Shown here: positions 47,041-51,246 of the stretch, piece after piece
Numbering within the stretch: the stretch's first letter is position 1
Layout of the letters: the number at the start of each line of letters is the position of its first letter
Source: Prevotellaceae bacterium
GTDB taxonomy: Bacteria > Bacteroidota > Bacteroidia > Bacteroidales > Paludibacteraceae
Reading direction: 5' to 3'
Assembly (NCBI GenBank): GCA_031271465.1
Contig: JAISVR010000043.1
Coordinates: 1-64,000 of the forward strand
DNA: 64,000 nucleotides
Translations under genes and position numbers: made by a program
Notes under the pieces: generated by a model
Told to the model about the DNA's origin: nothing
Seen by the model: the letters and a program-made list of their open reading frames with translations, nothing else
Database searches by the model: none

Positions 47041-47054
47041 ATCAATTGAATTGC

Positions 47055-48137
47055 ATGGTTTTAACTATACTCTTTGTTACAATATTTCTTTGCGTTGTAT
47101 TTGATTTCATCAACGGTTTTCACGACGCTGCCAACTCTATTGCCACAATAGTATCTACAAAAGTGCTCACTCCTTTACAAGCAGTTATCTGGGCGGGTGC
47201 ATTCAACTTTGTAGCCTTTTTTATTGCCAAATTTATTATCGGCGAGTTTGGTATTGCCAACACGGTATCGAAAGTTGTTCAAGACACACATCTGCACGGT
47301 ATCGACGGGCTGTATATCATTTTAGCCGGTATCATTGCCGCCATTGTTTGGAACCTGATTACCTGGTTTCTCGGCATTCCTTCCTCTTCGTCGCACACGC
47401 TTATCGGCGGGTTCTCGGGAGCGGCAGTTGCTGCCGTGGGCTTCAATGCAGTAAACATGGGCGTGGTAGGCAAAATTGCTGCCTTTATTATTCTGGCGCC
47501 GCTTATCGGTATGCTTATTTCGCTGTGCTTTACAACGCTCACGCTTCATATCTGCAAAAATGTAAAACCTCACAAAGCCGAAAAATGGTTTAAACGCCTG
47601 CAATTGGTTTCGTCTGCCCTGTTCAGCATCGGACACGGTTTGAACGACTCACAAAAGGTGATGGGTATTGTAGCCGCCGCCCTGTTTGCGGCAGGCAGTT
47701 TCGATGCCGCCGATACCTCTTTCTGGGGAAGCATACGCGGCTGGTTTGGCAATGTAGACAGCCTTGAGCACCTGCAAATGGACAATATAGATTTGGTTGC
47801 CGCTATCTGTTTTGGTGCAATAGCCCTGGGAACCATGTGTGGCGGGTGGCGTATTGTGAAAACGATGGGGACGAAAATCACCAAAGTTACCCCGCTCGAA
47901 GGCGTAATAGCCGAAACCGCAGGAGCATTTACACTTTATATCACCGAATTTCTGAAAATCCCCGTAAGTACCACCCACACCATTACCGGTGCCATAGTAG
48001 GGGTAGGCGCAATAAAGCGGCTCTCGGCAGTGCGCTGGGGCGTTACCATCAACCTTGTGTGGGCATGGATACTCACCATTCCAATCAGCGCTCTGCTGGC
48101 GGCAGGCATATATTATCTGCTTCAATTATTTGTGTAA
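47055..48137 (+). CDS. pit: Low-affinity inorganic phosphate transporter, Pit family
   Basis: The ATG at 47055 was chosen over a TTG at 47046. The 360-residue product has ten or so membrane segments and the duplicated Pit/PiT motif: DFINGFHDAANSIATIVSTK (17-36) and GHGLNDSQKVMGI (about 195-207). The second-half signature PVSTTHTITGAIVGVG is also present. It carries phosphate with a coupling cation across the inner membrane. It is co-transcribed with the DUF47 gene. A 98-bp inverted-repeat element lies 22 nt after the stop. Confidence 0.93.
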   Translation: MVLTILFVTIFLCVVFDFINGFHDAANSIATIVSTKVLTPLQAVIWAGAFNFVAFFIAKFIIGEFGIANTVSKVVQDTHLHGIDGLYIILAGIIAAIVWNLITWFLGIPSSSSHTLIGGFSGAAVAAVGFNAVNMGVVGKIAAFIILAPLIGMLISLCFTTLTLHICKNVKPHKAEKWFKRLQLVSSALFSIGHGLNDSQKVMGIVAAALFAAGSFDAADTSFWGSIRGWFGNVDSLEHLQMDNIDLVAAICFGAIALGTMCGGWRIVKTMGTKITKVTPLEGVIAETAGAFTLYITEFLKIPVSTTHTITGAIVGVGAIKRLSAVRWGVTINLVWAWILTIPISALLAAGIYYLLQLFV

Positions 48138-48159: not shown

Positions 48160-48257
48160 AAGAGCCTGTCCCAATGGTTTTTTAGTGAAATAAAATTTGC
48201 GTTCATTTGTGATATCTGCGGTATTTGCTTTCTAAAAAACTTTTAGGACAAGCTCTT
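48160..48257. repeat. 98-bp MITE-like element with 26-bp terminal inverted repeats
   Basis: Arms 48160-48185 and 48232-48257 are inverted repeats with about five mismatches (outer part aagagcctgtcc / ggacaagctctt). The inside has no coding content. It could also serve as a terminator for the phosphate operon, since the right arm ends in a T-run. Confidence 0.55.
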
Positions 48258-48336
48258 TTTTATATTGAAAATAAAAACGGGATTGTCCTTTTTATACGAA
48301 ATTATACCTTTGAGACTTGCAAAGCAAATTGTCGCC

Positions 48337-48366
48337 GTCATTGCAAGAAGGAACGACGAAGCAATC
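48337..48366. repeat. Half copy of the dispersed inverted-repeat element at 6.55 kb
   Basis: Shares gaacgacgaagcaatc and flanking bases with the left arm at 6547-6575. The matching right arm is missing here. Confidence 0.55.
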
Positions 48367-48399
48367 TCAGTACAGGCATGGATTCATCGAGACCTCGAG

Positions 48400-48428
48400 A
48401 CCTGTTAGGTTTTAAAAACCTGACAGGT
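48400..48428. repeat. 29-bp imperfect palindrome
   Basis: acctgttaggt ... acctgacaggt with a T/A-rich centre. It lies between the half element and the start of the long repeat array. Confidence 0.6.
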
Positions 48429-48450
48429 TATATCTTAACCCCTCCGCTTC

Positions 48451-49352
48451 GCTCGTCCCCTTTTAAAAAGGGGACAGTGTTGCACAGGCATCCTATTTGT
48501 GCAACAGGACTGTTTGCGCATAATTCTCCCCTTATTTTAACGGGCGTGTCCAAAGGGCGAGGGGTTAAAATAAAGGAGATGCGTTGCACAAACATTGTAT
48601 TTGTACAAAAAGAACAGTTTGTATTAAGCTCGTCCCCTTTTAAAAAGGGAGAGTATCTTTGTTTGGAGGAGATTCTACCTCATCCGTTCTATTTAAACCC
48701 CTCCGCTTCGCTCGTCCCCTTTTAAAAAGGGGACAGTATTGCTCAGACATCTGTTTGTGCAACAGGGCTGTTTGCGCATAATTCTCCCCTTATTTTAAGG
48801 GGAGTACCCCAACGGCGGGGGGTGAAAATAAAGGAGATGCGTTACACAAACATCGTATTTGTACAAAAAGAACGGTTTGTATTAAGCTCGTCCCTTTTAA
48901 AAAGGGGAAAGTGTTGCTCAGGCATCTGTTTGTGCAACAGGACAGTTTGTGCATAATTCTCCCCTTATTCTAAGGGGAGTACCCCAACGGGGGGAGGGGT
49001 TAAGATAAAGGATGCGTTACACAAACATCGTATTTGTACAAAAAGAACGGTTTGTATCAAGCTCGTCCCCTTTAAAAAAGGGGACAATGTTGCTCAGGCA
49101 TCTGTTTGTGCAACAGGACAGTTTGCGCATAATTCTCCCCTTATTTTAAGGGGAGTACCCCAACGGGGGGAGGGGTTAAAATAAAGGATGCGTTACACAA
49201 ACATCGTATTTGTACAATAAGAACGGTTTGTATTAAGCTCGTCCCCTTTAAAAAAGGGGACAGTATTGCTCAGGCATCTGTTTGTGCAACAGGACTGTTT
49301 GCGCATAATTCTCCCCTTATTTTAAGGGGAGTGCCCAAAGGGCGAGGGGTTA
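48451..49352. repeat. Repeat array, part 1: five copies of a roughly 177-bp unit
   Basis: Units start (at gctcgtccc) at 48451, 48710, 48886, 49061 and 49238; the last is truncated. A shorter 82-bp unit starts at 48628. Each long unit contains two palindromes, gtcccctttt-aaaaggggac-like and ctccccttattttaaggggag-like, and a tttgtacaaa. Spacings between adjacent long units are 175-177 bp. No frame is conserved between copies, so the array is non-coding. Confidence 0.85.
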
Positions 49353-49790
49353 ATAAATAACGGGGCGAGAGGGTAAGATATAAGAAAGAAAAAATAAAAC
49401 GCAGAACTCTAATAGAAATTCTTTCGACAAAAAAACATTGTGGAAACAACTTGTCCGAACAGTCGGGTTACTACACCCCTCCTCTTCCAACAACTTAGCT
49501 GTTGTACCACACGAAAGATTCGCGCGACAGCGGCTCCAAATCGAAGAAAAAATTTCCTCAAAAGGAACGAAAATTTTTCTCAAGTGGTAGATGAATTTTC
49601 CTCAAGTGGTACGGAAATTTTCCTCAAGTGAAAAATATTTTTTCCTCAAGTGGAAAATTCACCCCCCTCAGCACGGCGTAGAAGCTGCCTGCACCGCAGC
49701 TAAAAGCAAGTATCTTCACATGCAAGCAAAAAACAATTTAGAGATAACCGTAGAACCTGAAATATAAATAGAGTTTACCTTTTCTTGTTT
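49353..49790. repeat. Array spacer with five short TTTTCCTCAAGTGG repeats
   Basis: Between about 49540 and 49665 a motif close to ttttcctcaagtgg occurs five times at spacings of about 21-26 bp, with drift in the first copy. To its right a coding-like run ends at 49767 (EAACTAAKSKYLHMQ and EITVEPEI before a stop), which could be the tail of a lost gene. Nothing else was recognised. Confidence 0.5.
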
Positions 49791-49841
49791 CCATTATTTA
49801 AGCCCTCCCCTCCTCGTTATCTATTTAAACCCCTCCGCTTC

Positions 49842-50345
49842 GCTCGTCCCCTTAAAAAAGGGGACTGTGTTGCACAGGCATCCTGTTTCTACTACAGGGC
49901 TGTTTGTATTAAACTTCTCCCCTTATTTTTAAGGGGAGTACCCCAACGGGGGGGAGGGGTTAAAATAAAGGAGATGCGTTACACAAGCTTCCTGTTTGTA
50001 CAATAAAAGCAGTTTGTATTAAACTCGTCCCCTTTTAAAAGGGAGAGTATCTTTGTGCGGAGAAGATTCTACCTCATCCGTTCTATCTTAACCCCGCCGC
50101 TTCGCTCGTCCCCTTAAAAAAAGGGGACTGTGTTGCACAGGCATCCTGTTTCTACAACAGGGCTGTTTGTATTAAACTTCTCCCCTTATTTTAAGGGGAG
50201 TACCCCAACGGGGGGAGGGGTTAAAATAAAGGAGATGCGTTGCACAAGCTTCCTGTTTGTACAATAAAAGCAGTTTGTATTAAACTTCGCCCCTTATTTT
50301 AAGGAGAAAGCCCAAAGGGCAAGAAGTTAAGATATAACACGGAGA
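49842..50345. repeat. Repeat array, part 2: two more long units and a second 82-bp unit
   Basis: Long units start at 49842 and 50104 (181 and 180 bp). The short unit starts at 50023 and is about 81 bp. A worn unit begins at 50284. The order long-short-long repeats the order seen at 48451-48885, as if a block had been duplicated. Confidence 0.8.
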
Positions 50346-50442: not shown

Positions 50443-51246
50443 TTAATAAACCATCACTTTGCTAACATCTGCTCCCACGCATACGATATAAACTCCGGGC
50501 TGCGCAACGGATATACGAAACAAATCGCTGTTGGCTATCTGCTGAGCCGTCAGCTGTCCGGCAAGATTAAATACCAAAATATCCTCGTTCAACGCATTCT
50601 GTATTACTATGCTGCCGCGTTCGGCATAAATTGTCGAACCGTTGGAAGACATTTCGGGCACTACCGAAGTTTCGGGAAGCTCAAACCCCACATGTTTGCT
50701 TAAAGCAATCAGCTGTTCTTTCAACAAGGCGTTTTCCTCCTCCAGCCGGTTCAATTTGCTTTTCATGCATGCAGCTTCTTTAATCAGCTCAGACAAATCG
50801 GCAATAGAAATATCCACTTTCTTAATTTCGGGGTTGCTGTAACCGTCTATCCCCACCAAATAGCCCGAAGAGTTTGTGTTATAAGTATTCTTCAACTTCG
50901 GGTTGCCACCGCGATTAAATTCCGTTACCAGGTCGGATAAATCGGCAATAGAAATATTTACTTTCTTGATTTCGGGGTTGCTGTAATTATCTATCCCCAG
51001 CAAATAACCCGACGAATTTGTGCTGTAAGTATTTTTCAGCTTCGGATTGCCATCGTTGAAGTTTTTCATCAAGTCGACAATATCCCTGATAGGAACATCT
51101 ACCTTCCTGATTTCGGAATTGCTGTAACCGTCTATCCCTACCAGATAGCCGGACGAATAGGTACTCGAAGTGTTGGTCAACACCGGATTCTCTGCCGCCA
51201 TCAATCCGCAGATGAACAGCGCAACAAGGGTCAATTTTGTTTTCAT
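50443..51246 (-). CDS. Exported 47-residue-repeat protein with coiled coil and weak T9SS-like tail
   Basis: This encodes 267 residues with a signal peptide (about 1-18). Three tandem repeats of 47-48 residues follow (starting at N20, N67 and N115). Each has the pattern SSGYLxGIDxYSNxEIxKV and then a short amphipathic helix (ADLSDLVTEF-like). A leucine-zipper-like coiled coil comes next (about 160-185, NRLEEENALLKEQLIALSK). The last 70 residues (IVIQNALNEDILVFNLAGQL, then QPGVYIVCVGADVSKVMVY) resemble a type A T9SS domain but lack the usual NP motif at the start. It is flanked by the repeat island and rlmN. Function is unknown; surface exposure and oligomerisation are inferred. Confidence 0.75.
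   Translation of the reverse strand: MKTKLTLVALFICGLMAAENPVLTNTSSTYSSGYLVGIDGYSNSEIRKVDVPIRDIVDLMKNFNDGNPKLKNTYSTNSSGYLLGIDNYSNPEIKKVNISIADLSDLVTEFNRGGNPKLKNTYNTNSSGYLVGIDGYSNPEIKKVDISIADLSELIKEAACMKSKLNRLEEENALLKEQLIALSKHVGFELPETSVVPEMSSNGSTIYAERGSIVIQNALNEDILVFNLAGQLTAQQIANSDLFRISVAQPGVYIVCVGADVSKVMVY

Follow-up and report, generated by a model that had tools for sequence, protein, structure and literature searches.

The window analysed here, a 64,000-nucleotide stretch of a Prevotellaceae bacterium genome, contains a repeat island at 48160–50345 that lies between two convergent genes. On its left is the forward-strand gene for a PiT-type phosphate transporter (pit, 47046–48137), and on its right a reverse-strand gene (50443–51246) encoding a protein with 48-amino-acid repeats and a weak match to a T9SS type A tail. 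A 144-bp tandem repeat (window positions 50792–51158) lies inside the coding sequence of the latter, with about 48 residues per repeat (GYLVGIDGYSNPEIKKV). The assembly is a 99.8%-complete draft of 2.32 Mb in 46 contigs, and the island is located inside a 149-kb contig.

The original prediction described seven long units of 175–181 bp, of which one is truncated, together with two 82-bp units, a half element, a palindrome and a MITE-like element; we recovered all of these, with a long-unit length of about 176 bp. Long unit 1 (48452–48627, counted from the A palindrome described below) is followed by the first 82-bp piece (48628–48709), long units 2 (48710–48884), 3 (48885–49060, used as our search query) and 4 (49061–49236), and the truncated long unit 5 (49237–49353). 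The array resumes with long unit 6 (49843–50022), the second short piece (50023–50103), long unit 7 (50104–50283) and a terminal, degenerate B end (50284–50345), all on the forward strand. The long-short-long order does occur twice, and every long unit carries the two strong palindromes GTCCCCTTTTAAAAAGGGGAC and CTCCCCTTATTTTAAGGGGAG, or variants of them. The stretch 48710–49353 has a period of 176 with 93% match (TRF score 1095), and the island copies differ at 5–17% of positions. No reading frame is conserved, as had been proposed; the open reading frames over the island, such as that at 48225–48725, are translations of the repeats. The stated dissimilarity to CRISPR also holds: a CRISPR array needs short identical repeats and unique spacers, whereas the 176-bp units abut without spacers. 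The island is not, however, packed throughout, as 49354–49827 holds no unit. Nothing was found in favour of a replication- or recombination-linked structure or of a small-RNA source; an Rfam search of the window gave no match, and a tRNA search found none.

Three unrelated repeats lie to the left of the array. The 98-bp MITE-like element (48160–48257) has 26-bp inverted arms (48160–48185 and 48232–48257) that are 85% complementary, and it has 12 genomic matches. The CGTC-type REP half (CGTCATTGCAAGAAGGAACGACGAAGCAATCTC, 48336–48368, forward strand) has 137 genomic matches at up to three mismatches, with none for a reversed control, and the 30-bp palindrome ACCTGTTAGGTTTTAAAAACCTGACAGGTT (48400–48429) was read from the sequence. 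A 22-bp repeat found by TRF within the unit-free gap (49548–49655; 14 genomic matches) belongs to another, fifth dispersed family. Elsewhere in the genome, the CGTC-type REP CGTCATTGCGAG..GAAGCAATCTC forms clusters with regular spacings of 112 and 145–161 bp (C17:45295-45794, C17:80468-80724 and C30:41537-41871); tandem growth of REP-bearing DNA is therefore recurrent here.

One 176-bp unit used as a BLASTN query matched the 2.32-Mb genome 68 times, and the dispersed matches mostly span about 117–120 bp of the unit; because the element is nearly symmetric, some of the 68 are opposite-strand images of a single copy. The 22-base A end is present at 48 genomic places and its reversed control at none, which indicates about 45–50 copies in a census based on whole-genome searches and selected stretches. 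Dispersed copies are about 131–134 bp long and read AACCCCTC-mini-hairpin-palindrome-spacer-palindrome-mini-hairpin-GAGGGGTT. Two different REP-like end modules, A (AACCCCTCCGCTTCGCTCGTCCCCTTnnnnAAGGGGAC) and B (AACCCCTC(hairpin)ACTCCCCTTnnnnAAGGGGAG), thus form an inverted pair around a spacer of about 50 bp, each composed of an outer arm, a mini-hairpin and a strong palindrome. The ends are fixed and the interiors vary. Most copies are A-B and some B-B, with few lone A ends in the host genome. All copies lie in intergenic DNA or overlap only short open reading frames that the repeats themselves create; they take either orientation, whichever way the neighbouring genes point. Within the island, reverse-strand A-B elements were placed by alignment at 48435–48566 (both ends, AACCCCTC..GAGGGGTT) and 48697–48821 (B end degenerate), and two more with both ends lie at 49828–49961 and 50090–50222.

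The hairpin stems of this family are maintained through two-sided changes. Stems take the forms CCCC/GGGG, GCCC/GGGC and CTCC/GGAG, with CTGC/GCAG and CAGC/GCTG in other genomes, and the palindromes also show pairs altered on both sides. Folded as DNA, one element gave a z score of −6.0. In nested copies (L163, 1106–1301; L165, 3368–3568), an inner element sits between two outer arms of A type; both of these arms carry the same substitution and so pair perfectly. A search for the corresponding empty nested-target palindrome, TCCCTAATA-n-TATTAGGGA, did not find it. No host copy showed a clean target-site duplication, and no empty site in a close strain was found.

Similar architecture extends to other Bacteroidota. 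Three metagenome-assembled genomes (Paludibacter SA7853_bin1, Bacteroidetes CTSoil_024 and Bacteroidota bin158(14d)) carry the same arrangement with different interiors, and versions with altered ends occur in G302 and G009, two genomes of the same taxonomic order. When 393 genomes from this order were searched with a covariance model, matches were strong only in the genome of origin; those in 11 others were weak because the interiors are not shared. The whole element matched nothing among plasmids and named phages, and the 22-base A end was found in 21 stretches of IMG/VR contigs. The phage form is mostly a single A module of about 39 bp in sense orientation within narrow gaps between co-directional genes (L175–L201, L220–L223, L241–L242, L321 and L350), often 0–8 nt past a stop codon and 13–45 nt ahead of the next start. 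Neighbouring genes encode portal, terminase, head protease, capsid, Mu-like transposition proteins and endolysin. Three phage copies lie within long open reading frames (L177, L178 and L187); in L177 and L178 the module seems to be read in frame as part of a very long protein. Doublets occur in two viral contigs (L185 and L188), and the one strict B-module pattern searched was absent from viral contigs.

Comparison of related phages establishes that the A module exists on its own as an insertion. The occupied Mu-like phages L241 and L242 read ...AAAAAAAGAGATG[AACCCC...GGGGACATTTT]AGAGATAGTTGG, and an empty relative with a 96% identical protein, L243, reads ...AAAAAAAGAGATAGTTTACAGTTGG; this is an insertion, with a possible 6-bp duplication in this single case. 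The site downstream of the endolysin gene is occupied in L220 and L223 and empty in L227–L230, and the gap between head protease and capsid genes holds an A module in only one related phage, the others having different hairpins there. Upstream of a capsid or terminase gene in L321–L330 and L358, different hairpin inserts, or none, are seen across related phages. Intercistronic gaps in phages behave as if they were exchange sites for host-type hairpins. A bolder proposal, to which we give low confidence, is that the ~39-bp module (AACCCCTCCGCTTCGCTCGTCCCCTT-n-AAGGGGACA) might be a DNA unit capable of transfer, present both in Bacteroidota chromosomes as A-B doublets and in their phages as single sense intercistronic inserts; it would be moved without RAYT by an undescribed enzyme, and phages would use it as an RNA element between cistrons.

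For the island itself, we consider it probable that the units are copies of the non-autonomous, dispersed, REPIN-like element of about 131–134 bp, amplified locally in tandem. A tree of units was poorly resolved because their ends are mosaic, and interiors alone were compared instead. By this measure the closest kin of island copies are other island copies: the ~50-base interiors of units 1–5 share 88–96% mutual identity, and those of units 6 and 7 are 98% identical, with the nearest dispersed interiors at 80–82%. In the remaining ~57 bp of the unit, a stretch like a diverged interior (82% to the interiors of dispersed copies) precedes an A palindrome; the 176-bp period, or ~177-bp unit, is therefore made of two spacer-plus-palindrome halves. 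In the sequence searched, the middle of the 82-bp piece occurs only at its two places in the island. The earlier notion of a decaying satellite came close in that this is a locally amplified tandem array, but its unit belongs to a dispersed genomic family, of which the island is a secondary cluster.

Such an array could have begun when the element inserted once or twice downstream of pit. The element can fold as a single strand, presenting two REP-like ends that each combine a small hairpin and a strong palindrome, and a trans-acting enzyme working on these folded ends would have spread its copies. Slippage or unequal recombination between palindromes might then have amplified the element together with its flank, perhaps as a ~260-bp long-short-long block first, with subsequent loss of the 82-bp piece yielding the 176-bp array. 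The MITE-like element, CGTC REP, palindrome and 22-bp repeat presumably inserted into this permissive space between the two convergent genes as well. This explanation does not call for a function of the array itself. Two genomes of the same genus, G002 and G003, have no island behind pit; there, another convergent gene, which judging by its sequence may be nitroreductase-like, follows after a short gap.

The genome encodes four Y1 transposases; each has the YIxNQ motif (IS200 or subclass 1.2 in the motif table of PMC6006769), and none is near an element copy. No RAYT (YIxxNP) was detected in its 99.8%-complete assembly. RAYT-like proteins (YIHxNP) are present in G302, G404, G405 and G406, mostly flanked by unrelated hairpins of the type CGTCGGATTTGCAATCCGACG, a linkage that served as the positive control for our test of transposase–repeat association. 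RAYT-like genes in other Bacteroidota (L102, L103, L109, L113, L114 and L120) likewise have their own REP hairpins CGTCGGATTTGCAATCCGACG alongside. With no YIxxNP protein detected, and with unrelated REPs carried by the RAYTs of related genomes, we rejected RAYT as the mobiliser in this genome. That the family is nonetheless a classical REPIN population mobilised by RAYT (TnpAREP) is very unlikely, although its doublet architecture, extragenic copies and tandem clusters do resemble those reported in PMC3116915. Descent as a MITE from a DDE insertion sequence, with terminal inverted repeats and a TA or TTAA target, is possible but doubtful. The element does have terminal inverted repeats of about 42 bp, with gaps (AACCCCTC..GAGGGGTT), most ends have TTAA or TA on their outer side (TTAA at 22 of the 34 A ends and at 25 of the 39 B ends), and the nested copies have symmetric outer arms; yet the two ends differ, some copies have no TTAA, and the genome lacks an IS630 gene. 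No autonomous parent with these ends was seen in searches that covered IS630 and Y1, and the lone A ends inspected had no insertion sequence.

Stems kept by paired changes, and the sense orientation of phage copies in narrow intercistronic gaps, might instead point to a transcribed element selected as RNA, for 3′-end protection or intercistronic RNA processing. We think this unlikely: host copies occur in both orientations between genes of every orientation, there is neither a U-tract nor an Rfam match, and mobility as single-stranded DNA accounts for the stems equally well. The assembly is a draft of 46 contigs, several of which end near family copies, and an assembler might have created the copy number or order. 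The 5–17% divergence among copies makes simple read collapse unlikely, however, and with the island inside a 149-kb contig and other regularly spaced REP clusters in the genome, an artefact is highly improbable.

We found no description of this family, and its motif GCTTCGCTCGTCCCC did not appear in the literature searched. As a kind of structure the island is ordinary; what looks new is the family, along with its missing mobiliser and its link to phages. The movement of REP doublets is attributed to RAYT transposases, and a Bacteroidota family that combines a conserved four-hairpin architecture, no detectable RAYT, tandem growth and lone insertion of the same end module in phage operons makes transposase-less REP movement directly testable.

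Among known systems, the closest likeness is to the REPINs of Pseudomonas fluorescens, where tandem clusters that include flanking sequence, and nested insertions, are known (PMC3116915). Like those REPINs, the copies described here are dispersed, extragenic, multi-copy and foldable, consist of two inverted REPs around a short spacer, occur as doublets more commonly than as singlets, and show paired stem changes. They differ in that A and B are dissimilar, the spacing is larger, single modules occur in phages, and we found neither a cognate RAYT in the genome nor a RAYT with the same REP on its flanks; because no RAYT is detectable, we liken the element to a REPIN and do not class it as one. 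A likeness to the CGTC- and GTAG-tagged REPs (PMC3733652) lies in palindromes near a CGTC motif; Bacteroidetes are among the hosts of CGTC repeats, and the CGTC REPs, which reportedly have no transposase of their own, show 8–9 bp stems, 4–5 base loops and mostly CCA tails in published cases. The A module (GCTCGTCCCCTTnnnnAAGGGGACA) departs from the definition of Di Nocera 2013, which asks for an unpaired CGTC at one end and a CCA-like tail, in that its CGTC overlaps the stem, its tail is ACA, and a mini-hairpin and an outer arm are present in addition; the true CGTC-like REP at 48336–48368 is separate from it. The BrickBuilt MITE of Porphyromonas gingivalis (PMC4596501) is similarly intergenic, MITE-like, tied to tandem repeats and found in Bacteroidota, but there a 23-nt tandem unit lies inside one element, whereas here whole elements with their flank make up the tandem unit.
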